A stretch of 64,000 nucleotides of DNA from Methanoregula sp. (GCF_028679125.1 NZ_JAJRCG010000009.1:1-64000); one strand, 5' to 3'; numbered from the stretch's first letter, positions 283 to 45,388 are shown. The notes: a model not told the origin generated them from the letters alone. Numbers and translations are program-made.

Positions 283-2280
283 ATGGACTTCATGCTTGCT
301 CTTGTCGGTATCGGCATCCTTTCCATCATTCTCCTGTACGTGGGAGCGAAGTACCAGCTGCCGAGCATTGTCAGTTTCCTCATCATCGGCATGTTTGCCG
401 GGCCCTATGGCCTCGCGATCATCACCGACCAGTCCACGATCGAGACGATGGGGGAGATCGGGATCATGCTCCTGCTCTTCACCATTGGCCTCGAGTTCTC
501 GTTTGAAAAACTGCTCAAGTCCTGGCGCATTGTGATCATCGGCGGCCTTGCCCAGCTCTGTACCACGATCGTTGGCATCGCGTTTGCCGCATACATTCTT
601 GGGGTACCGGCCCAGTCAGCCATCGTATTCGGATTCATCATCTCGCTCTCCAGTACAGCAATCGTCATGAAGATCCTGCAGGAACGCCGCGAGGTGGACA
701 CTCTGCAGGGCCGGACCCTTTTTGGGATCCTGCTCTTCCAGGACCTCGCCATCATCCCGATGCTCCTCATCACCCCGGTATTCATGGGTATCGGTGGTAC
801 CGATCTGGGAGACCTTCCCGAGCAGATCACCAAGGTCGCGATGATCCTCATCCTCATCATCATCCTCGCCAAGTGGGTGATCCCGAAGATGCTGTACAAG
901 GTCGCTTCCCAGAAGAACCGGGAACTCTTCTTCATTACGATCGCCGGTATCTGCGTGATCGTTGCCTGGCTCACCAACCAGGCCGGGCTCTCGTACACGC
1001 TCGGGGCATTCGTTGCCGGCCTGATCATCGGGGAATCGGATTACAACATCGATGCGCTCAGCCACATCATCCCGTTCCGGGACATCTTTGCCGCAATCTT
1101 CTTCCTCTCCATCGGGATGCTGCTGGACACAAAAACCATCTTCGCGGACTCGTCGTTCATCACCCTCATCCTGATGATTGTGATCCTGATCATCGGCATC
1201 AAGATCCTGACCGGTATGTTCGCATCGGCCATCCTCGGGATGCCGGCCCGTGTCTCCATCATGACGGGTTTTGCGCTCTGCCAGGTGGGAGAGTTCTCGT
1301 TCGTGCTCGCGAAGACCGGTCTTGACGCGAACTTTATCCCGAACAGGATCTACCAGATCTTCCTTGCGGCAGCCATCGTCACGATGGCCCTCACGCCCTT
1401 CATGATGAACGCCGCCCCCCGGGTGACCGAGTTCTGGTACCGCCATGCGCCCCGACGGGTCCTTCCCGACCCTGCGGGATGCTCTGCTGGTGTCACACCC
1501 GAACGATCGCTCACGGATCATATCATTATCGCAGGATACGGCATCACCGGCAAGAGTGTTGCCCGTGCAGCCGAGATCACCGGCATCCCCTACATGGTCA
1601 TCGAACTGAATCCGGATATCATCCGGAGGGAGAAATCCTCCCGTCGCCCGTTCTTCCTCTTTGGGGATGCAGCCCAGGAGGAACTGCTGGAACATGCCGG
1701 GATCCGCGATGCACGGGCACTGGTTGTCGTTGTGTCCGACCAGGAAGTAATTCCCCGCATCGTCCATTCCGCCCGGCAGCTGGCGCCGGAGATCTATATC
1801 ATCGCCCGGACAACGCACATCCGCCATGCACAATACCTGCTGGATCTCGGAGCCGATGAGGTCGTGTCGGAAGAGTACGAGGCGGCAAAGGAGATCTTCA
1901 CCCGGGCACTGAAGAAGTACCGGCTGCCAGATTCGGAGATTGCAAAAATCGTCTCAAAACTTCAGAACTGGGGCTATGCCAAGTTTATCAAGAACGGGAA
2001 CAACACGCCGACGATGGGCATGGACACGGTCCTCTTATCCCTGCGTATCCATATGCTCACCGTTGAGCCGGGATCCTTTGCTGACGGGAAGACGATTGCG
2101 GACCTGGAACTCAAAAGCAGGTATGGCATATCCGATTTCGGCGTTCGCCGTGATAACAAGACCACCGCCCAGCCGGATGTGAGCACCTGCCTGATAGCGG
2201 GTGACGCGCTCATCATCTTTGCAACAGACCAGACGGCCAAGGATCTCGGCCATTGTTTCTCAAAACAGGAAGAGGCCTGA
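283..2280 (+). CDS. Kef-type monovalent cation:proton antiporter with TrkA domains (copy 1)
   Basis: CPA2-family membrane antiporter of 665 residues. Roughly the first 390 residues form a dozen hydrophobic helices carrying SLSSTAIVMKIL and the LFQDLAIIP motif, where Kef-type proteins place the ion-path Gln-Asp. A cytosolic TrkA-N Rossmann domain follows at about 405-520 with the nucleotide loop GYGITGKS, then a TrkA-C ligand-binding domain to the end. The family exchanges K+ or Na+ for protons under NAD(H) or nucleotide control; the ion cannot be read from sequence. A close paralog lies 240 bases downstream in the same direction, so the pair probably arose by tandem duplication. The ATG start fits the first membrane helix. 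Confidence 0.9.
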   Translation: MDFMLALVGIGILSIILLYVGAKYQLPSIVSFLIIGMFAGPYGLAIITDQSTIETMGEIGIMLLLFTIGLEFSFEKLLKSWRIVIIGGLAQLCTTIVGIAFAAYILGVPAQSAIVFGFIISLSSTAIVMKILQERREVDTLQGRTLFGILLFQDLAIIPMLLITPVFMGIGGTDLGDLPEQITKVAMILILIIILAKWVIPKMLYKVASQKNRELFFITIAGICVIVAWLTNQAGLSYTLGAFVAGLIIGESDYNIDALSHIIPFRDIFAAIFFLSIGMLLDTKTIFADSSFITLILMIVILIIGIKILTGMFASAILGMPARVSIMTGFALCQVGEFSFVLAKTGLDANFIPNRIYQIFLAAAIVTMALTPFMMNAAPRVTEFWYRHAPRRVLPDPAGCSAGVTPERSLTDHIIIAGYGITGKSVARAAEITGIPYMVIELNPDIIRREKSSRRPFFLFGDAAQEELLEHAGIRDARALVVVVSDQEVIPRIVHSARQLAPEIYIIARTTHIRHAQYLLDLGADEVVSEEYEAAKEIFTRALKKYRLPDSEIAKIVSKLQNWGYAKFIKNGNNTPTMGMDTVLLSLRIHMLTVEPGSFADGKTIADLELKSRYGISDFGVRRDNKTTAQPDVSTCLIAGDALIIFATDQTAKDLGHCFSKQEEA

Positions 2281-2519
2281 TCTTTTTCATTGGGGCACGA
2301 AATAGTGCGCCCGGCCAAATCTTTTGTTTTTATTGATCGGCCCGGACCGGATGGCATACGATTCTTTCATTCCTGCTACCGGTCGCAGTAATGATCCTTT
2401 CCTTTCGCAAATGAGTGCTGGTTTTTTTAGCACGTGGTATCGTACCCTGTTGCAGAAAGTATTATATCCGGTTCATCGCCACCTCTACTCAAAGTCTGTA
2501 ATACACCGGAAGATTCTGC

Positions 2520-4505
2520 ATGGATATCCTCGTTGCCAGTGTAAGTGTCCTGATACTTGCCGTCCTCCTCCTCTACTTCGGCCAGCGCCTGAAGATCCCC
2601 AGTATTGTCAGCTACCTGATCATCGGCATCCTGGTCGGGCCGTACAGTTTCGGGATCATCACCAACCAGGATGCCATTGATGCGTTCGGCAATATCGGGA
2701 TTGTCCTGCTCCTCTTTACCATTGGTCTTGAATTCTCGTTCCAGAAACTCCTGCGCTCATGGCGGACGGTGATCATCGGGGGATCCGTACAGGTCCTGGT
2801 CACGATCGTTGCAATCACCCTTCTCACCGAATATCTCGGTATGCCTTTTTCCGAGGCGCTGATCTTCGGGTTCATCGTCTCCCTCTCCAGCACGGCCATT
2901 GTCATGAAGATCCTGCAGGAGAAAGGCGAGGTGGATACTCTCCAGGGCAGGACGCTTCTTGGGATCCTCATCTTCCAGGACCTTGCCATCATTCCCATGA
3001 TGCTTATCGCACCCATGCTTGTCGGGAGCGGGGGCATTGACCTGAATTCACTGCCATTCCAGATAGGAAAAGTCGCCATCATCCTCCTTGTCATCATCGT
3101 CATGGCCCGCTGGGTGATCCCGGCGTTCCTGTACAAAGTGGCATGCGAGAAGAACCGCGAGCTCTTCCTCATCACCCTTGCCGGCATCTGTGTTCTCATC
3201 GCGTGGCTGACAAGCGAAGCGGGGCTCTCGTTCACGCTCGGGGCGTTCATTGCCGGGCTCATCATCGGGGAATCGGATTACAATATCAATGCCCTCGGCC
3301 ACATCATCCCGTTCCGGGATGTCTTTGCTGCAATCTTCTTCCTCTCGATCGGTATGCTCCTCAATACCCAGACTATCTTCTCCGATTTCTATTACGTGGC
3401 CATGATCGTTGTCACCATCATTGTCGTAAAGATCCTTACGGGTGCGGTTGCCGCCGCAGTGATCGGGATGCCGCTGCGGGTCTGTGTTTTTTCGGGCCTT
3501 GCACTCTGCCAGATCGGGGAGTTCTCCTTTGTCCTGGCAAAGACCGGTCTTGACTCCGCACTCATCCCGAACGTGGTCTACCAGATTTTCCTTGCCGCGG
3601 CGATCATCACCATGGCCCTGACCCCCTTTACCATGAATGCAGCACCGAAAACCGTTGATCTCATCTACCGGATCGTGCCGGCCCGGATCCTTAAACAGCG
3701 GGCAGAACCCGCAGAGGAGATAGAGAAGGATCTCTCCAATCACCTCATCATCGCCGGCTATGGCATCACCGGCAAGAGCGTTGCCCGGGCAGCTGCCATT
3801 GCCGGGATTTCCTACATGGTCATCGAGCTGAACCCGGCGATCATCCGGCAGGAGAGGTCAACCTTCCGCCCCAACTTCATGTTCGGGGATGCCGTACAGG
3901 CTGAAGTACTGGAACATGCCGGTATCCGGCGGGCACGGACGCTGGTCATCGTTGTGTCCGATGAGGATGCCATCCCCCGTATTATCAATACCGCACGGGA
4001 ACTTGCGCCCGGCGTGCATATTCTTGCGCGGACACGGCGGGTGCGGGAGGCCCGGGCCCTGCTGGATCTGGGTGCTGATGAAGTGATCTCGGAAGAATTT
4101 GAGGCATCGGTTGAGATCTTCTCCCGGGTACTCCGGAAATACCAGCTTCCCGATGAGGAGATCAATTACATTATAAAAAAGACCAAGGCGATCGGCACTA
4201 CCCTGTTCGCGAAGAGTACCACGGGCGAAGCGGAACTGGAAGATCCCAGCATTCTCTTCAACGACCGGCACGTACACTCATTCCTTATCGAACCCGGTTC
4301 CAAAGCAGACGGGAAGACAATTGGCGAACTGGAGCTGCATACCCGTTTTGGCATAGGAGAGTTCGGCATCCGCAGCGGTGGGCGGACCACCAGCCGGATC
4401 CAGCCCGCACGAAAGCTCAGTGCAGGAGAATCTCTCATCACCTTCATAACAGACGAGACCGCCCGGGAAGTGGCCCCGTTGTTTGCGAAGAAAGTCAACT
4501 CCTGA
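2520..4505 (+). CDS. Kef-type monovalent cation:proton antiporter with TrkA domains (copy 2)
   Basis: A 661-residue paralog of the preceding gene with the same plan: a CPA2 membrane domain (SLSSTAIVMKIL, IFQDLAIIP), a TrkA-N domain with GYGITGKS near residue 415, and a C-terminal TrkA-C domain. Similarity is strong along the whole membrane part and weaker in the linker near residues 385-405 and in the C-terminal domain. This suggests the copies share a transport mechanism but differ in regulation. The 240-base gap before it is long enough for its own promoter, so the two copies may be expressed independently. Ion specificity is not determined. Confidence 0.9.
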   Translation: MDILVASVSVLILAVLLLYFGQRLKIPSIVSYLIIGILVGPYSFGIITNQDAIDAFGNIGIVLLLFTIGLEFSFQKLLRSWRTVIIGGSVQVLVTIVAITLLTEYLGMPFSEALIFGFIVSLSSTAIVMKILQEKGEVDTLQGRTLLGILIFQDLAIIPMMLIAPMLVGSGGIDLNSLPFQIGKVAIILLVIIVMARWVIPAFLYKVACEKNRELFLITLAGICVLIAWLTSEAGLSFTLGAFIAGLIIGESDYNINALGHIIPFRDVFAAIFFLSIGMLLNTQTIFSDFYYVAMIVVTIIVVKILTGAVAAAVIGMPLRVCVFSGLALCQIGEFSFVLAKTGLDSALIPNVVYQIFLAAAIITMALTPFTMNAAPKTVDLIYRIVPARILKQRAEPAEEIEKDLSNHLIIAGYGITGKSVARAAAIAGISYMVIELNPAIIRQERSTFRPNFMFGDAVQAEVLEHAGIRRARTLVIVVSDEDAIPRIINTARELAPGVHILARTRRVREARALLDLGADEVISEEFEASVEIFSRVLRKYQLPDEEINYIIKKTKAIGTTLFAKSTTGEAELEDPSILFNDRHVHSFLIEPGSKADGKTIGELELHTRFGIGEFGIRSGGRTTSRIQPARKLSAGESLITFITDETAREVAPLFAKKVNS

Positions 4506-6913: not shown

Positions 6914-8693
6914 GCTGCACCTCCTTTGGCAGATGAATGGTAAATGTACTGCCGCCATTCACGACACTTTCAACGGTGATATCGCCCCCATGCATCTGGA
7001 CCACTTTCTTTGCAATGGAGAGCGAGAGGCCGAGCCGTTCATACTTACGGGCAAGAACAACGCCATCTGCCAGCTGGAACGGCTCGAAGATCGAACATAA
7101 CTGGCTTGGCGCTATGCCGATGCCATTGTCCCGGATCGCAATGTGATGCTGCCGGTCATCAATCCCCGTCCGGTAGATGATACCGATCTTCCGCGGGGGC
7201 TTGGAATAACTGATGGCATTGGACAGGATGGAATCCAGGATACTGATCATGCGGTCTGCATCGGCCGTGATCATGACAGATTCTCCGACATCAACTGTCA
7301 GATCGGCTTTTGTGCCAAACCCCCCGTCGTCCAGCACTTTCCTGACCATGGGTGCAAGGGCAAAGGTTGAATATTTCAGCTTGATCTTCCCGCTGTCCAG
7401 CACCGAGAGGTCCAGCATCTGGTTGATGATCTGCCGCTCGCGATCCACGCTTGCAAGGCAGCGTTCAAGGATCTTCTTGGTATCCGCGACAATGCCGAAC
7501 CCCTCCGGATCGGAGATCAGGAGATTGAGGTACCCGAGGATGGGCTGAAGGGGCGTCCGCAGCTCGTGAGCAACGGTGATGATGATACCCCGGCGGCGGT
7601 CATTATCCTGGAGGATCTTCTCTTCCAGCCGCTGTTTTTCAGAGATATCGACAAGGTTGATGAGGGTAGCCGGGTTCTCCAGGTGCCGGATAGCGGTAGT
7701 AAAGAGTGCTGCGCCCCGGATCTCGCCGCTCTTTGTCACGAACCGCAATTCCCGGGTTTGTGCTGCGGGAATTTTCTGTGACCATTGTGCCATGAACTCA
7801 TTCAGATTCTCACGATCCCCCGGATCGATGAAGGTCTCCAGGCTTTTACCGGTAATCTCCGCAACCGTATGTCCCAGAAACGCAACAAACGACGGGTTGG
7901 CAAAACGGATGAACCCGTTCTGGATGATGAGGATACTGGTGGGCGAACTCTCGGTGAGCTGCCGGTACTTCATCATGTTGTCGTTGTTGAGTTTCTCGGC
8001 AATCTTGCGGCCATTGATGTTCATCACCGAACAACTGACGGTATTCGCATCGATGTGATCCCACGAGAGGTTCACCCAGCAGGATCCCCCGTCTTTTGTG
8101 GCAAACCGTGTCTCGAAATCCGAGGTGGTCTTCTCCTTTTCGATCCGCTCAAGGAACCGGCTCTTCTCCCGGGGAGTGAGGAAGATATCCAGGAATGATT
8201 TTTCATTCACCTGGCCGGGGGTATAATTCAGCATGCCGGAGAACTTGGTGTTGCTCGTGCGGATGGCGAATGTCGCCGAATCGAAAAGGAGGATCCCGAT
8301 CTGCGAGTGCTCGAAGATAGCCCGGTACCGGACTTCCCCGGAACGGACCCGCTCGTTGAAGAACGTGATGAGTGCCGCGAGAATGATGAAAAAAATTGCT
8401 TCGGATGTAACGCTAATCATTGCCAGGGAATCGGGATAACTGTGATAGTACCCTATGGTCTGGAAAGCGAAGCTGCATATCGCTGCAATATACAGGCCGC
8501 GTCTCGGGAAAAAATATGCCGCATAGATGATCGGTATGAACAGGAGCTGGGAACTGATGAGGCAAAAAGCGCTGGAATACGCCATGGCAGTGATAAGGAT
8601 ACACGAAATGGTCAGCGATGTGACAACGATGATCCGTACCAGTTCTTCATCAGGTACCGGGAAACGGTCAATTGGCAATGCAATCTCACCCAT
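6903..8693 (-). CDS. membrane PAS-sensor histidine kinase
   Basis: A sensor kinase of about 596 residues. Four or five hydrophobic helices fill the first 110 residues. Two PAS domains follow (about 120-230 and 240-360), then a HisKA domain with the phospho-accepting His in AHELRTPLQP, and a HATPase domain with N (ILSNAISYS) and G1 (DNGIGIAP) boxes. The ORF track starts at a TTG; I prefer the ATG at 8693 because a TATA-like TTTTATTTAAAA lies about 25-35 bases upstream and no ribosome site is visible, which fits a leaderless message. The receiver gene overlaps its end. The signal sensed is not known. Confidence 0.88.
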   Translation of the reverse strand: MGEIALPIDRFPVPDEELVRIIVVTSLTISCILITAMAYSSAFCLISSQLLFIPIIYAAYFFPRRGLYIAAICSFAFQTIGYYHSYPDSLAMISVTSEAIFFIILAALITFFNERVRSGEVRYRAIFEHSQIGILLFDSATFAIRTSNTKFSGMLNYTPGQVNEKSFLDIFLTPREKSRFLERIEKEKTTSDFETRFATKDGGSCWVNLSWDHIDANTVSCSVMNINGRKIAEKLNNDNMMKYRQLTESSPTSILIIQNGFIRFANPSFVAFLGHTVAEITGKSLETFIDPGDRENLNEFMAQWSQKIPAAQTRELRFVTKSGEIRGAALFTTAIRHLENPATLINLVDISEKQRLEEKILQDNDRRRGIIITVAHELRTPLQPILGYLNLLISDPEGFGIVADTKKILERCLASVDRERQIINQMLDLSVLDSGKIKLKYSTFALAPMVRKVLDDGGFGTKADLTVDVGESVMITADADRMISILDSILSNAISYSKPPRKIGIIYRTGIDDRQHHIAIRDNGIGIAPSQLCSIFEPFQLADGVVLARKYERLGLSLSIAKKVVQMHGGDITVESVVNGGSTFTIHLPKEVQHDA

Positions 8694-39589: not shown

Positions 39590-39674
39590 GCGAGGGTAGC
39601 CAAGCCAGGTCAACGGCGCTAGGTTCAGGGCCTAGTCGTGCAGACGTTCATGGGTTCGAATCCCACCCCTCGCA
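39590..39674 (+). tRNA. tRNA-Leu (CAG anticodon)
   Basis: The acceptor stem GCGAGGG pairs with CCCTCGC. The anticodon stem CTAGG/CCTAG encloses TTCAGGG with anticodon CAG. A long variable arm (TCGTGCAGACGTTCATG region) marks a type II tRNA, and the T arm is GTGGG-type with TTCGAAT. The discriminator is A and CCA is not encoded. No intron. An AT-rich accessory region begins 11 bases after it. Confidence 0.93.
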
Positions 39675-39684
39675 TTCCTCCCGC

Positions 39685-39734
39685 GGGTTATAGGTATCCT
39701 GAAAAAATGCCACTGTTCTAAAATCGCTTTCACT
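39685..39734 (+). repeat. left copy of a 50-bp imperfect inverted repeat
   Basis: Begins GGGTTATAGGTATC and ends CTTTCACT. It matches the reverse complement of 44700-44749 at 45 of 50 positions with no gap. Differences are a CT/TC pair, two bases in GTTC/CTTG and one G/A. It lies just after tRNA-Leu and outside the accessory operon. Confidence 0.85.
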
Positions 39735-39779
39735 CAAGAGCAATCGCTCTATAATTGCGGCGCGCTGGTCTAAAAAGTT

Positions 39780-40781
39780 TTATCCCACTTCACGACAGGG
39801 AATCAACCGAATTAAGTTATGAATTGCCCCTTCGGATAAGATCGGCTGTCTGGAAGTAATGTATGTGCACAGCCGGGAGGGGTAGACTATATCAATATAC
39901 TTATCAATTCTCTGGCCATGCTGGGCACCATGCATCGAAACGAGAACGCTTTGGACTCTTGGCATTTTCTCAAAAAAATAATGGCCTTTCATGTAGTACC
40001 AGAGTGCATAACTCGCTCTTCGAATTTGATGTTTCAAGTCATCTGCTTTTATTCCTATTTCAGAGGTTTTCCATTTTTTCGTTTCGATTAAAAAAATACC
40101 TGTGGGGCCTATGACGATATGGTCAATTTGACAAGTTTTGATATGCTCATTTCTTTCTCTCCAGTAAATGTACTTAGGAAAAGAGAGATTTACATCATTC
40201 AGTACATGATATTCATCAGGCAATTGGGCAAGAATGTTGATTACAGATTCTTCTCCCATTGCTCCAATCACAAACGAAGAATTATTTGAGAGAAAATTCT
40301 GTGTATCTGTGATATTCTTACAAGTATTTTTTATGACTTGTGGTTTATGCGCAATGTGATGATTTTTTTGTGATTTGGTATTATGCAGGTTTTTTCGGAT
40401 ATGTTTAAAAGGGCTATTAATTCTGTAGTTTCTCAACGATACCTCAATCCAATATTGAATTCTATATTTAAATTTCAGGAAAATACCATCAGCAATCTCG
40501 GCGTTTATTTGTATTTCGGAGATATGTGCATCCACCTCAACAGTTCGATATGAAAGACCTTCCATAAGCCGGCTTTCAAGTTTTTCCTCTTCTTCACTTA
40601 ATGAAATGATGATCTCATCTTCTTGTTTTGAAACAGTAAGTTCTGTATCAGCAAGAATTTTTTCATAATTCTTGTGAAAATGCATAACTTCTTCGAATGT
40701 AGTGAGTCTTTTTCCTGATATCGGTTTAGTTCCATTCAGTAAATATCGAGTACTTCCGGAAATTCCATGAATCTTAGCCAT
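39780..40781 (-). CDS. NERD-domain protein
   Basis: A 333-residue protein with a nuclease-related domain (NERD) at about 171-290. The pattern IGAMGEESVINIL, then QIDHIVIGPTGIFLIETKKW, retains the acidic and Lys residues expected of a nuclease-like active site. The N-terminal 150 residues are charged and unlike any family I know. NERD proteins occur with helicases and defence genes, but activity is rarely proven. AT-rich codon use differs sharply from the flanks. Its start overlaps the TPR-RDD stop by several bases. It is last in the operon and 45 bases inside the left inverted repeat. Confidence 0.75.
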   Translation of the reverse strand: MAKIHGISGSTRYLLNGTKPISGKRLTTFEEVMHFHKNYEKILADTELTVSKQEDEIIISLSEEEEKLESRLMEGLSYRTVEVDAHISEIQINAEIADGIFLKFKYRIQYWIEVSLRNYRINSPFKHIRKNLHNTKSQKNHHIAHKPQVIKNTCKNITDTQNFLSNNSSFVIGAMGEESVINILAQLPDEYHVLNDVNLSFPKYIYWRERNEHIKTCQIDHIVIGPTGIFLIETKKWKTSEIGIKADDLKHQIRRASYALWYYMKGHYFFEKMPRVQSVLVSMHGAQHGQRIDKYIDIVYPSRLCTYITSRQPILSEGAIHNLIRLIPCREVG

Positions 40782-41562
40782 TTGTTAATTCTCCCTCGGC
40801 AATGGTATCATGTAAAACTCTCGTTTTTGCGATACTATCGTGAATTGTCTCCTTTTCAGGTCTATTATTCATTAAAAATGCACTAATAATATTGATGAAT
40901 GGGATGAATTTTATGAAATTCCTTATCAGTGAATAAGAAAAAGCAATCCGATTGCCATTTGGATCGGTTACATGAAGATTCATGATTTTTTTTCCAGGTG
41001 TTGCACTGAAATGTGAGCTTTCCAACCAAGCAAAAATCATCCAACCTCCAATAAAAATGTAGAATACCAAGAAAAATCCAAAAATTGCATTAATAATTGA
41101 ATTTACCCCAAATATTACGCGTATGAGCATTCCGGGTATGAACAAGATAAATAATAAAATCCACCAGCATAATGCATCAATGATCCATGCCTTAAAACGA
41201 GCATCGAGTCCGGCATAGTGCATCTCTTTTAGCGTAGTAGATTCCTTAATGGAGGTTGCATTTATCGATGAGGGGGATTGGGGTAATTCTTGAACATTGA
41301 CAACATTTAAAATTTTTTTAGTTTCAACAGACCCTTTTTCCTTTATTCTTGTTATTTGCGTTTTACATTTTTCCGCCTCTTCAAATAATCCCATCTTGAT
41401 TAAAAGGAATGCTATGTGTGTCCATGCATCAAGATAATCAGGACTCAATTCAGTGGCGTGAGTAAAACATCGGATAGCATTAGTGTAATCCCGCTGTGTT
41501 TCATATTCTCTTCCAGCTTGATCCCATGCAATAGGATCATTGATGTTTTTTGGATCGGTCAT
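40774..41562 (-). CDS. TPR-RDD membrane protein
   Basis: A 262-residue fusion. The first 80 residues hold one or two TPR units (AIRCFTHATELSPDYLDAWTHIAFLLIKMGLFEEAEKC). A linker follows, then an RDD domain (YAGLDARFKAWIIDALCWWILLFILF, with later GKKIMNLHVTDPNGNRI) spanning three or four membrane helices. RDD proteins are poorly understood and some transport ions. The TPR part would face the cytosol and could recruit the neighbouring NERD protein. It overlaps both neighbours by a few bases and shares their AT-rich composition. Confidence 0.75.
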   Translation of the reverse strand: MTDPKNINDPIAWDQAGREYETQRDYTNAIRCFTHATELSPDYLDAWTHIAFLLIKMGLFEEAEKCKTQITRIKEKGSVETKKILNVVNVQELPQSPSSINATSIKESTTLKEMHYAGLDARFKAWIIDALCWWILLFILFIPGMLIRVIFGVNSIINAIFGFFLVFYIFIGGWMIFAWLESSHFSATPGKKIMNLHVTDPNGNRIAFSYSLIRNFIKFIPFINIISAFLMNNRPEKETIHDSIAKTRVLHDTIAEGELTNG

Positions 41563-42221
41563 ATTTCAGAAACCTTTGGCTGTTGGTGTTTCACAATTCG
41601 GCCATTGTTGTATTCCCACCATTCATAGTTTGTACGTGATTCCTTGTTTGACATATCAATAAATTCTCTTTCGAATTCACTAATCCAATCACCATTTTCC
41701 CTCTGATTATCATCTCTAAAAACAATGCACCAATCTACTTTTTTTGCATAATTATGAGCATCAGCGTTAGTTATGAAAAAAGTGTTATGGGCTTTCCCAT
41801 AACTGATTGTATAAACTACAAAATGGGTATATCCTTCAAATTCCTCGTTTGCTTTTCTTCTCTTATGTGGTTCATGAAATTTTTCGGGATTTTGTGATGA
41901 GAAGTTCCATTCTTTCCGCACACCATAACGTCCGAGTCGATCATAGCCAAGGTCTAAATTGAAATTATTCAGATTTACTTCAAAAACCGCAACAGGTTCG
42001 TGGAATGAGGCTCGCTGTGCTTCTGTAAATGCTCTTTTTTTTGAACTAAATTCTTTGGTTGGGGGAGAGTCCCATCCACTCTCGCCCAAGTAAACCACAA
42101 CATACCCGATGCGGTTTTTGTAATATTGATTTTGTTTCTCTTCAATTGATTTGATGTCAGAATAATACTTTTTTTGACCATCTTTAAAATCGGAAAAAAA
42201 TTTTCTAATCCAATTGATCAT
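41559..42221 (-). CDS. uncharacterised protein of the accessory operon
   Basis: A 220-residue soluble protein I do not recognise. It is rich in aromatic and charged residues (VVVYLGESGWDSPPTKEF, WEYNNGRIV) and has no signal, membrane helix or obvious catalytic motif. I start at ATG 42221, with GGGAGA upstream, six codons inside the track ORF; this gives an ATGA overlap with the Nudix stop. The N-terminus is basic and amphipathic (MINWIRKFFSDFKDGQKK). Translational coupling on both sides argues it is a working part of the unit. Confidence 0.7.
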   Translation of the reverse strand: MINWIRKFFSDFKDGQKKYYSDIKSIEEKQNQYYKNRIGYVVVYLGESGWDSPPTKEFSSKKRAFTEAQRASFHEPVAVFEVNLNNFNLDLGYDRLGRYGVRKEWNFSSQNPEKFHEPHKRRKANEEFEGYTHFVVYTISYGKAHNTFFITNADAHNYAKKVDWCIVFRDDNQRENGDWISEFEREFIDMSNKESRTNYEWWEYNNGRIVKHQQPKVSEI

Positions 42222-42583
42222 GATTTCTCCCTGGTGCAATACATTTCTATAATTTTCTTCGTGTTATGCGATACGGGCAATGAGGAGCCTAAAGAATAAT
42301 AGCCAATTTGGGAGATCTCATGTCGTGGTTTCGGTATACCCTCTGCTTGTATTAAGAAAACTTTCGATTGATGAAAAGTAAAGAGATATTTTACTTCGTA
42401 TGCAATCAATCCGGTCTCTTCCCGTAACTCCCTAATCGCGGCTTCAATTCTTGATTCATTGTTTTTTGTCCCTCCCCCCGGAAGAAGAAATGGTGCAATG
42501 CCCTGACGCACAACAAGAATTCCCTTGGAAGTATCAACAATTGCAGTCCCCCTTCTCCGATCATAAGCTCCAGTCGTAATTAT
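42218..42583 (-). CDS. Nudix hydrolase, start codon unclear
   Basis: The Nudix box is intact: GGGTKNNESRIEAAIRELREETGL follows GX5EX7REUXEEXGU. The first GTG (42511) leaves out a needed strand; the open frame continues upstream as RRRGTAIVDTSKGILVVRQG, a normal Nudix N-terminus, back to an in-frame TGA at 42584-42586. No ATG, GTG or TTG lies there, but GGGGTGA directly precedes ATA-ATT codons. The gene either uses a non-canonical start, has lost its start, or holds a sequence error. I mark the full open frame. Nudix enzymes cleave nucleoside diphosphate-X bonds; the substrate is unknown. Confidence 0.65.
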   Translation of the reverse strand: MITTGAYDRRRGTAIVDTSKGILVVRQGIAPFLLPGGGTKNNESRIEAAIRELREETGLIAYEVKYLFTFHQSKVFLIQAEGIPKPRHEISQIGYYSLGSSLPVSHNTKKIIEMYCTREKS

Positions 42584-42626
42584 TCACCCCGTTGGATTCG
42601 AATTATCACGATGAAAAGTGCGTTCT

Positions 42627-43400
42627 TCATTTTCTTAGTGGTTGGCTATCAATAGTCTGCATCTTCTGAATGGTATCCAAATCAAGAGCCAGGATTTGAT
42701 CGATGCTCACCGGTTTGTATCCCGTCAACTCTACACTTACATTGATGGTTTTATTCTCTCCATTGATGAACGGATATTTTCCCATACTGTTGTTGTGCTT
42801 GTGTCCGTGGATAATCCATTCAGACCAATCTTTTGGGATTCGATCAGGATCATGGGGATTATGCACAAGCAGAAAATCCCGGTTCCTGTAATTCAAAACG
42901 ACAGAATCATATGAATTGGGTGGGCGGGGCTCATCGTGAGATGGTCCGATAATAAATTGAATCGTTCCGTTGAGTTGAGCCAGCCAATAACTTATCGGGC
43001 GATGTTTCTTCCCCCACGCCATATCCCCTAAGAAAAAAACTGTTTCGTTATTCTTTATGATAGAGTTCCAGTTTTTTAATATTGTTTGATTCATCTGTTC
43101 GAGACTAGAAAAAGGTCGGTTACAATATTCAATGATATTCTTATGATCAAAATGAGTGTCCGAAACCAAGAAAAAAGAGGATTCCAGTTCAAATCTTGGA
43201 ATAGTTGCTTTGGTAAAAAATGATGGCGTGTCAGAATATTGTTTTGATAGATCTTCCGTTATGTGATATTGACGCGGATCCTTTGCTTCCTCACGGGTAA
43301 GCAAGCGTCTCTGGAAAAAATCATACTCTACGAGGATGCGACTGTTCTTGACAATAGTAATCCTGCTGATAAAAATACTCGGATGAATCGTAGTGTTCAT
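42627..43400 (-). CDS. calcineurin-like metallophosphoesterase
   Basis: A 257-residue metallophosphoesterase with the motifs SDTHFDHKN (residues 80-88), LGDMAW (124-129), GPSHDE (152-157) in place of the usual GNHD, a His in LLVHNPHD (180), and HGHKH (198-202). The metal set is nearly complete, but Asn is replaced in the third motif, and that could alter activity. About 75 residues precede the domain and have no known fold. The ATG lies 80 bases inside the preceding 2H gene, an unusually long overlap; a TTG further in is an alternative start. Confidence 0.8.
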   Translation of the reverse strand: MNTTIHPSIFISRITIVKNSRILVEYDFFQRRLLTREEAKDPRQYHITEDLSKQYSDTPSFFTKATIPRFELESSFFLVSDTHFDHKNIIEYCNRPFSSLEQMNQTILKNWNSIIKNNETVFFLGDMAWGKKHRPISYWLAQLNGTIQFIIGPSHDEPRPPNSYDSVVLNYRNRDFLLVHNPHDPDRIPKDWSEWIIHGHKHNNSMGKYPFINGENKTINVSVELTGYKPVSIDQILALDLDTIQKMQTIDSQPLRK

Positions 43401-44292
43401 TTTTCACATATTCCTGAATTTTTTTGAATTTTAGTTCTGGTACATTCAGAGTAAGCGTTGAATGAAATACAAACTCTTCCTTGCCATCGAAATCAAAGGG
43501 TTTCAATTTGCAGAATATTTTCAGACGCTGGGAGAGATCAAACCTGAATTGTTTAAGGTTTTCACAAGGATTGATATCAAAATAAATAACTCGTTTTGGC
43601 TCTTCAAATGCACTGAATCCTTTGATTTGAAATTTCATTACAGGAGTTTTTGAGCAGAGATCTGTGAAAACGGAAATTAGCTGTTTCTCATTTGAAGTAC
43701 TTAGTCCCCCAGCAAGAGAAATATGAGGTACAAATCGGTATTGCTTAATTCCAAATTCATTGACTATTTCGTCTTCAAGTCCTTTGATCTTAGTTTTTAA
43801 TCTCCTGTCAACAATTCGGATTTCTATTAGGTAACTATCATTGCCACTCTTTGGAAAATAGAAATCAGGAATATGTTTTTTGAAGATGCTAGGTTTTGTT
43901 GGATGGCTTTGATGTTTCTCCGGAGTTTTCTTTTTTGATAGTGGGGATACAGTACGAAAAATACTGGAGAGTATAAATATTCCCGTACCAGCAAGCAAGC
44001 AATATTCAAGACCATTTACAATCCCGATTAATTGTAAAAGAGTTCTACTCATCCAAAATGCGATAGTCGATATGATTACCCAATAGACAAAATCACCATC
44101 GATCCTGAAGGTATTATGCCGCGTAACGGTTCGGACACTCTTTGCGATAATTGTTATGCCAAGGCCAGATCCAAGTGTAAATATTATTATATTCGGGATA
44201 GCGGCCAATAACAGACCCGAAAGAAATACTGATAACGAATGGACAAGTATCCAGAATATAGTCCATTCCACGGATAGAGATCTCGCTCTCAT
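43321..44292 (-). CDS. membrane-anchored 2H phosphoesterase
   Basis: A 323-residue fusion. The N-terminal 120 residues hold three or four hydrophobic helices (ILVHSLSVFLSGLLLAAIPNII and later LEYCLLAGTGIFILSSIF). The C-terminal half is a 2H (LigT/cyclic phosphodiesterase-like) domain with both signature motifs: PHISLAGG (His190, Ser192) and FHSTLTL (His277, Thr279). Such enzymes act on 2',3'-cyclic phosphates, 2'-5' linkages or cyclic nucleotides. Tethering to the membrane is unusual. It is first in the leftward operon and AT-rich like the rest; the next gene starts within its end. Confidence 0.78.
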   Translation of the reverse strand: MRARSLSVEWTIFWILVHSLSVFLSGLLLAAIPNIIIFTLGSGLGITIIAKSVRTVTRHNTFRIDGDFVYWVIISTIAFWMSRTLLQLIGIVNGLEYCLLAGTGIFILSSIFRTVSPLSKKKTPEKHQSHPTKPSIFKKHIPDFYFPKSGNDSYLIEIRIVDRRLKTKIKGLEDEIVNEFGIKQYRFVPHISLAGGLSTSNEKQLISVFTDLCSKTPVMKFQIKGFSAFEEPKRVIYFDINPCENLKQFRFDLSQRLKIFCKLKPFDFDGKEEFVFHSTLTLNVPELKFKKIQEYVKNEHYDSSEYFYQQDYYCQEQSHPRRV

Positions 44293-44474
44293 TAGTAGTT
44301 TTTGTTAATATTTATAATATTTAATGATAAAGAAATGATTTTTTCTGACTCTGCAATTCTTATTCCTCTCTCAACGTTCTTATCACTATCAATCCTCTAC
44401 TGATTCGCAAGAAATCAACAAAAATCAGCGTTGATTAGCATCAATATCCGCATCAATCTATGCTTATCAGCGGA

Positions 44475-44852
44475 TCATCCGACCTGATCAGCATCCAGAT
44501 CCCACTGATCCAGACGAGTCATCACCTGCTTTTGAAGGTAAAACTGCAGATCTCCGTCAGTTTGCTTTTTCAGATGATGCAACGTGCCTTTAGAGAATCC
44601 GCGTTTCTTCCACTCAACATAAGGGATGCTCAATATCTTTTTCCGGATATCATCCGCATCCTGACGGTTGATCGCATAATCCGGGTAGTATAGCAGAACA
44701 GTGAAAGTGATTTTACAAGAGTGGCATTTTTTCGAGATACCTATAACCCCGCATTCATCCCGCCGGGCCAAGTCTCTTCTGAAAATATTTTGGGTTTTAT
44801 GATACCGTTCAAGAATACCCGCACGACACAACGTACTGTGACAAGCATTCAA
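44475..44852 (-). pseudogene. possible Cas1 C-terminal fragment
   Basis: An ORF of 125 codons. Its second half (RKKILSIPYVEWKKRGFSKG, then TLHHLKK) resembles, from memory, the C-terminal tail of Cas1 from CRISPR adaptation modules of methanogens. The first half (a CxxC-like CHSCK stretch) does not look like Cas1 and includes the right inverted repeat. If correct, only about a fifth of Cas1 remains and the ORF is a scar. It has no strong ribosome site. It could instead be an unknown small protein. It lies 27 bases after the toxin gene. Confidence 0.35.
44700..44749 (-). repeat. right copy of the 50-bp imperfect inverted repeat
   Basis: On the minus strand it begins GGGTTATAGGTATC and ends CTTTCACT, matching the left copy at 39685-39734 at 45 of 50 positions. 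It lies inside the Cas1-like ORF and about 400 bases beyond the operon start. The pair encloses about 5 kb. Confidence 0.85.
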
Positions 44853-44879: not shown

Positions 44880-45155
44880 TCAGAAATCCCTGTATGCCTG
44901 TTTTCTGGACTCAATTTCAAGAACATGAATGATCAGGACATCATCATGAATTGAGAGCAGTGCTCGAACGTCTCTCCTTATCCGAAGAGAGTAGATCGGA
45001 TGGTTCGGATTTGACGCCATCATCTTTTTGATGAACCGGTAGGGATCTTCTCTGATAGCATGGATCAAACCAACAACATTCCGGGCAATCTCTTGCGGTA
45101 ATTTTTCCAGATCCCGGTCGGCAAGATGGGTGTACTTCACCCGGTACGGACTCAC
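44880..45155 (-). CDS. RelE/ParE-type toxin
   Basis: A 91-residue type II toxin of the RelE/ParE superfamily. Segments YRVKYTHLADRDLEKLPQEI and PIYSLRIRRDVRALLSIHDDVLIIHVLEIESRKQAYR fit the fold, including basic residues in the RRDVRAL strand and near the C-terminus. RelE members cleave mRNA on the ribosome; ParE members hit gyrase. The start is GTG 45155, overlapping the antitoxin stop by GTGA, the usual antitoxin-first arrangement. Confidence 0.82.
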   Translation of the reverse strand: MSPYRVKYTHLADRDLEKLPQEIARNVVGLIHAIREDPYRFIKKMMASNPNHPIYSLRIRRDVRALLSIHDDVLIIHVLEIESRKQAYRDF

Positions 45156-45388
45156 TCAACTTCGTATTTCTTCTTGATATCCTTTTCCGAAATCAGGTTC
45201 CCTTTTTTGATATCCTCAAGACCCTCTTCCAGACCTCTGATAGCATCCGCACTGAGTGGTTCATCATCAATGGAAAGATTCACCAGGCGCTCGATAACAT
45301 CGTTGTATGATTCCTTCGGGTTGCGCTTCAGGTTGTTCAACTGGGTTTTGAGATCTTCCCGGATATAAATTGAACTTGCGGCCTGCAT
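45152..45388 (-). CDS. antitoxin of the RelE-type pair
   Basis: A 78-residue protein with a short N-terminal strand and helix (SSIYIREDLKTQLNNLKRN and YNDVIERLVNLS) like ribbon-helix-helix/VapB-type antitoxins. An acidic C-terminal tail (LEEGLEDIKKGNLISEKDIKKKYEVE) would wrap the toxin. The pair probably autoregulates from the AT-containing promoter upstream. The start is the ATG at 45388. Confidence 0.78.
   Translation of the reverse strand: MQAASSIYIREDLKTQLNNLKRNPKESYNDVIERLVNLSIDDEPLSADAIRGLEEGLEDIKKGNLISEKDIKKKYEVE

Follow-up and report, generated by a model that had tools for sequence, protein, structure and literature searches.

A probable non-autonomous, decaying family 2 casposon with a cargo operon beside tRNA-Leu in Methanoregula

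The casposon of Methanosarcina mazei has terminal inverted repeats (TIRs) with the sequence GGGATATAGGTAACTCAAAAAAACGCAACGC and a 14-nt target-site duplication (TSD), ATAATCTTAATGCG (PMC10359463). Its 14-bp TSDs start with CGCA and overlap the last 4 bp of tRNA-Leu, and a helix-turn-helix (HTH) extension at residues 342–406 of its casposase is required for integration (PMC6977970). Here, a 64,000-nt stretch of Methanoregula sp. DNA (GCF_028679125.1, NZ_JAJRCG010000009.1:1-64000), called the window below, was compared with this and other described systems. A 5.1-kb block of the window, at 39685–44749 including its terminal repeats, was very probably a non-autonomous, decaying family 2 (M. mazei-type) casposon that carried cargo beside tRNA-Leu.

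Laboratory mini-casposons of M. mazei are TIR-bounded cargo moved in trans (PMC10359463). The window element likewise had TIR-bounded cargo without a casposase; however, the mini-casposons are man-made and carry resistance markers, whereas the window element was natural and degenerate. Thaumarchaeal casposons contain accessory nucleases and NERD, OLD, and HEPN-type genes (PMC6563490). Unlike the window element, they have kept the casposase and the polymerase. Site-specific parking by an essential gene and exchangeable cargo that includes defence genes are also known from Tn7-like elements and from defence islands at tRNA hotspots, but the recombinase there is a different one, while the window element belongs with a Cas1-family integrase. 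In the literature search, which subscription papers lay outside, no paper joining casposons with Methanoregula was found, and searches for non-autonomous, cargo-bearing, or truncated casposons gave no description of natural non-autonomous ones in the literature that was read.

Terminal repeats and integration target

The original prediction, made from the window sequence, had described a 50-bp inverted repeat beside tRNA-Leu matching at 45 of 50 positions, and this was confirmed. The arms, TIR-L (39685–39734, + strand) and TIR-R (44700–44749, − strand), were 50 nt each and 45/50 complementary (90%), while about 3e-14 inverted-repeat pairs of such quality are expected by chance in 12 kb. The genome-wide search that it had proposed located the 50-bp arms at two places in the 2.67-Mb genome, both bounding the window element, and a common dispersed repeat was therefore rejected. 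TIR-type sequence common to other casposon ends extended TIR-R to 44682. The exact window TIRs were not found in viral contigs.

The tRNA-Leu(CAG) gene predicted by ARAGORN at 39590–39674 (+ strand) was intact and was separated from the left arm by 10 bases; the same tRNA gene lies between the PKD and ACS genes in relatives, and it was identified as the integration target. Outside the inverted repeat, a 14-bp direct repeat that the original prediction had not mentioned was found, with CGCATTCCTCCCGC before the left arm (39671–39684, + strand) and CGCATTCATCCCGC after the right arm (44750–44763, + strand). The TSD scan showed that the two copies agreed at 13/14 positions, with the consensus CGCATTC(C/A)TCCCGC and a chance expectation of about 1.6e-7. 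The initial 4 bases of the left copy were the final 4 bases of tRNA-Leu(CAG), so that the TSD form of family 2 casposons (about 14 bp, CGCA start, 3′ end of tRNA-Leu) was present, and it read CGCATT in the same orientation as the M. mazei TSD.

The G+C content was 33–43% inside the element, 54–60% in the left flank, and 43–46% in the right flank up to about 46 kb. A composition unlike both flanks, as first predicted, was thus found on the left, but not on the right, where the flank stayed low in G+C; the sharp contrast was on the left only.

Comparison with the M. mazei casposon MetMaz-C1 and its casposase 6OPM revealed a shared TIR (25/31 identical positions for TIR-R; 22/31 for TIR-L), a 14-bp TSD beginning with CGCA, a target formed by the last 4 bp of tRNA-Leu, and the casposase family with the C-terminal extension. 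MetMaz-C1 differed in its size of about 10 kb and its intact Cas1 and PolB, while the 5.1-kb window element had a casposase relic and a foreign operon.

Casposase relic and related elements

An open reading frame (ORF) at 44475 to about 44693 (− strand), directly inside TIR-R, corresponded to the last ~75 codons of a casposase (residues ~335–410), which is the C-terminal HTH extension of family 2 casposases and lies close to that of M. mazei. This ORF had no Pfam match and no start codon of its own within the element. Its homologues in other Methanomicrobiales were the C-termini of Cas1 proteins of ~413–421 amino acids. A full-length relative from genome G064 (413 amino acids) aligned along its entire length, C-terminal extension included, with 6opm_A, the casposase of M. 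mazei (1.8e-175), whereas its best CRISPR Cas1 match reached 9.5e-42 only. A fragment of a CRISPR cas1 gene was rejected, because the relic is the HTH extension itself and the full-length protein most similar to it, a casposase, is encoded beside PolB.

No intact casposase was found anywhere in the window genome (assembly 94% complete), and no casposon PolB was matched in it; therefore, the window element could not move by itself. Inside the element, Pfam searches found no HNH, HTH, or family B DNA polymerase domain, and no tyrosine integrase or insertion sequence (IS) transposase. The earlier statement that no integrase or transposase was present held for intact genes, but it had passed over the casposase relic just inside the right arm. 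The TIRs and TSD of an autonomous family 2 casposon were present without the intact casposase, PolB, HNH, and HTH genes, and DNA without core genes between casposon TIRs and a TSD is the form of a non-autonomous derivative.

A complete casposon of the same genus was found at G064:C1:1964119-1978982. It was 14.9 kb long, lay at tRNA-Leu(GAG), had a perfect TSD (CGCATACGTTTCTT), and encoded a casposase and PolB together with HTH and HNH proteins (the latter two from ORF inspection). Its cas1 and polB genes pointed outward, with accessory genes between them and the TIRs. The window element shared with it the TIR family, the tRNA-Leu target, the casposase C-terminus, and AT-rich cargo on the cas1 3′ side, and differed in that the G064 casposon had intact cas1, polB, HTH, and HNH genes and a cargo of GmrSD-like and HEAT-repeat proteins. 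A PolB 3′ relic lay within the G064 cargo between two accessory genes (locus L042, ~7366–7509, equal to G064:C1:1966365-1966508), as if two casposons had merged.

The original prediction had called for a comparison with relatives lacking the region, and genomes G168 and G125 indeed kept the locus without the element, with the order PKD gene, tRNA-Leu(CAG), ACS2, ACS1 and no TIR after the tRNA gene. G171 had the same order, but with TIR-like relics. In G064 and G154, the PKD gene and the tRNA-Leu end were in common with the window locus and TIR-like relics were present there; the elements of G059 and G175 adjoined the same PKD gene. The locus was therefore considered a recurrent insertion site, since in relatives it was variously empty, marked by TIR-like relics, or occupied by elements at the same PKD gene.

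Two shorter derivatives at tRNA-Leu had perfect 14-bp TSDs: that of G109 (CGCATATTTAGTCA) had a casposase relic directly adjoining one TIR, and that of G150 (CGCATTTTTATCAA) had a PolB relic. After deletion of the core, the cargo would remain between the two TIRs, with a 3′ relic of cas1 or polB between it and one of them. This layout was seen in the window and, often with one end eroded, in G059, G175, G156, G125, G109, and G150. No second TIR was detected next to the casposase relics of G059, G175, G156, and G125, and these were counted as one-ended.

A search for TIR/TSD pairs of the same motif in Methanolobus and other genera found none; however, single TIR-like ends abutted tRNA-Leu in other genera, so the TIR-at-tRNA pattern extended past Methanoregula. 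TIR-like ends directly adjoining tRNA-Leu (tRNA-Gly in L226) near casposase relics were observed at L204, L211, and L216, and also at L220 and L226. Several separate casposase C-terminal pieces per locus, with or without a full casposase, were present at L198, L201, L208, L212, L215, and L219 of Methanolobus and relatives. A casposase C-terminal relic was also observed at the start of a catalogued viral contig (L197, IMGVR_UViG_3300032098_000016).

In L043, L079, and L046 (G059, G175, and G125), the TIRs adjoined 3′-half fragments of tRNA-Leu and not whole tRNA genes; these fragments are possible relics of earlier insertions. A TIR subfamily with about 70 bp of inner sequence in common (CCTAAGAAAGATTCATTA...) was seen at L071, L075, and L080 (G167, G150, and G157). 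The casposase relic of G157 was the same as that of Methanoregula sp. fen_80 (L214), by which the genus of the window is identified as Methanoregula.

Cargo genes of the window element and of its relatives

The predicted domains of the cargo (NERD, TPR-RDD, an unknown protein, Nudix, calcineurin-like, and 2H with N-terminal hydrophobic helices) were found as stated, all on the − strand. The NERD-domain protein (39780–40781, 333 amino acids) matched PF08378 at 7.5e-14, and the TPR and RDD membrane protein (40774–41562, 262 amino acids) matched PF06271 at 3.5e-19 and TPR_8 at 1.9e-8. The third ORF (41559–42221), with an ATG at 42221 and a possible longer TTG start at 42239, encoded an orphan protein of ~220 amino acids. 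These three ORFs, ~815 codons together, were intact and overlapped head to tail. The Nudix hydrolase gene (42218–42511; PF00293, 3.9e-9) had an open frame extending upstream to ~42589 without ATG, GTG, or TTG before the internal GTG at 42511, and its start codon may have been lost.

The 2H phosphoesterase half (43321–44292; PF13563, 1.1e-12) had the N-terminal hydrophobic helices and both H-x-S/T motifs intact, while the GNHD motif of the calcineurin-like phosphoesterase half (42627–43400) was altered to GPSHD. In relatives, 2H and calcineurin form one gene, e.g., of 406 amino acids in G093. The original prediction had taken them as two translationally coupled genes; judged by the sequence and the alignment with fused relatives, they are instead the two parts of a single ancestral gene, broken by a one-base indel within a run of five bases (43371–43375, − strand; T5 on the coding strand), and it is there that the reading frames of the halves part by one base. 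The split gene, the changed GNHD motif, and the lack of a Nudix start suggest that some of the cargo has begun to decay.

The orphan protein had no Pfam, NCBIfam, PADLOC, or PHROG match and no relatives in 295 genomes of the phylum, GTDB species contigs, or viral contigs, and its structure prediction had a mean pLDDT (predicted local distance difference test score) of 38 and gave no usable model. NERD relatives occurred in 11 further genomes of the order, 8 of them at full length with 40–51% identity, and had unrelated neighbours where inspected. The RDD relatives also had other neighbours, and 2H-calcineurin fusions were widespread without the other cargo genes. The Nudix gene lay beside a 2H-calcineurin gene once elsewhere (G357), which was the only co-occurrence and the only sign of a functional pair. 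The proposed six-gene conserved module was accordingly rejected after the phylum and order searches. Enzymes of the 2H and calcineurin-like families act on 2′,3′-cyclic phosphate or phosphodiester ends, and Nudix enzymes act on nucleotide diphosphate compounds; given this known biochemistry, RNA-end or nucleotide repair would be the simplest guess for the Nudix and 2H-calcineurin proteins.

The sister derivatives had the same casposase C-terminal relic with different cargo. Ten sister cargo proteins, chosen by eye, were scanned with PADLOC. Defence genes were found at the equivalent position in relatives: Avs2 in G059 (E = 0), in G156 a SIR2 protein that matched the N-terminus of Dsr2 (8e-81), ApeA-HEPN in G175 (PDC-S58, 3e-56), and a GmrSD protein in G064 (7.5e-28). 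Weak matches were a STAND protein in G125 (4.8e-5) and RiboL-PSP-HEPN in G150 (3.9e-5), while the cargo of G109 encoded a surface-type protein and not a defence gene. In a rough control, 28 host proteins of the window were scanned with PADLOC at 1e-15, and the families found were each matched by one protein only and had helicase-type names. The defence content of the sister cargo was suggestive and did not amount to a formal enrichment, because the scanned proteins were picked by eye. The window operon gave weak RDD and Nudix matches only to defence families, none at a convincing score.

A RelE/ParE-like toxin and antitoxin pair lay at 44880–45388 (− strand), just outside the right TSD, and a homologous pair lay ~2 kb or less from a TPR-RDD gene in G073:C24 (L196). 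At 283–4502 of the window lay the genes of two neighbouring membrane proteins, paralogues with 61% identity in an alignment, which are likely cation/proton antiporters.

Origin and possible role of the element

The TIRs, TSD, tRNA target, casposase relic, lack of an intact casposase and PolB, empty sites, and architecture of the sister elements argue strongly for a casposon origin. We infer that insertion began with recognition of the tRNA-Leu(CAG) 3′ end by a casposase, which then ligated the ends of the casposon at cuts staggered by 14 bp; this would give a TSD starting with CGCA. The core (the 5′ part of cas1 and the HTH, HNH, and polB genes) would have been lost later, by a deletion from inside TIR-R into the casposase gene that left its last ~75 codons beside the TIR, and the remainder between the TIRs would be the AT-rich cargo operon. 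A casposase from elsewhere might mobilise the element in trans. The insertion is probably old, given the differences between the TIRs and between the TSD copies and the broken genes. Those differences (5/50 and 1/14) also weigh against a casposon origin, as do the shortness of the relic and the incomplete assembly, which might lack a casposase that acts in trans. In addition, the right flank was AT-rich and unlike that of the empty-site relatives; a single clean insertion therefore does not account for all of the rearrangement nearby. No transposition was observed. Inverted repeats and a tRNA target are common to many elements, and the block might instead be an anonymous transposon or tRNA-targeting integrase element whose TIRs resemble those of casposons by chance. 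This is highly improbable: TIR sequence, TSD length, CGCA start, choice of tRNA-Leu, and relic all fit casposons, no tyrosine integrase or IS transposase lay inside, and the relic and the G064 casposon already contradict it. The relic itself might have been retained as a functional HTH fragment, for example one that regulates or inhibits casposon insertion or that anchors DNA when cargo is exchanged. Among the 17 casposase relics of the genus, 15 extended to the C-terminus and none to the N-terminus, and the relics match the extension needed for integration (PMC6977970). Yet in the intact casposon the cargo is placed 3′ of cas1, and this layout alone predicts an excess of 3′ relics. The window copy lacks a start codon, and several relics contain stops. 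Codon-position conservation was 0.74/0.83/0.50 in the relics vs 0.80/0.90/0.54 in intact genes; being no better than in intact genes, it gave no sign of extra constraint on the relics at the DNA level. A retained function is thus unlikely.

On a casposon origin, the cargo probably has an accessory role, possibly in antiviral defence or RNA/nucleotide repair, and two readings of it are compatible with that origin. In a functional antiviral operon, the phosphoesterase and Nudix enzymes would process nucleotides or RNA ends, NERD would cut nucleic acid, and the membrane proteins would sense or execute. The defence genes in the sister slots and the helicase-type control matches favour this reading, which is plausible, by association with the sister elements, while falling somewhat short of probable. 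No operon gene matched a defence family convincingly, the genes did not co-occur elsewhere apart from the G357 pair, the frameshift, altered active-site motif, and lost start argue against function, and the scanned proteins were hand-picked, with a surface-type protein in one sister. Alternatively, the cargo may be a fossil, random genes trapped in a dead casposon and all decaying without present function. The same three lesions, the low G+C content, and the missing casposase are consistent with this, but NERD, TPR-RDD, and the orphan are intact, and the one-base homopolymer indel could be an assembly error; a fossil is possible and rather doubtful. Of the original prediction, the idea of a separate, mobile-type unit beside a tRNA gene whose cargo is accessory and may be defensive was upheld, but that of a conserved signalling or defence module was not.

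The CRISPR adaptation module is proposed to derive from casposons, and in the leading scenario a casposon lands by an innate immunity locus and loses its polymerase (PMC6452270). It is tentatively proposed that the natural non-autonomous casposons of Methanoregula are casposon-derived defence islands, in which the tRNA-Leu site of a Cas1-family integrase serves as an exchangeable antiviral slot and the window version would be a new system of orphan, NERD, TPR-RDD, and 2H-calcineurin/Nudix proteins. If this is true, core-less natural casposons beside Avs2, Dsr2-type, and ApeA genes would be living parallels to that step in the origin of CRISPR. The natural derivatives would be a set in which movement of defence cargo in trans by a Cas1-family integrase could be tested, and the signature of TIR, TSD, and relic would be a simple means of finding such islands and new candidate defence genes.

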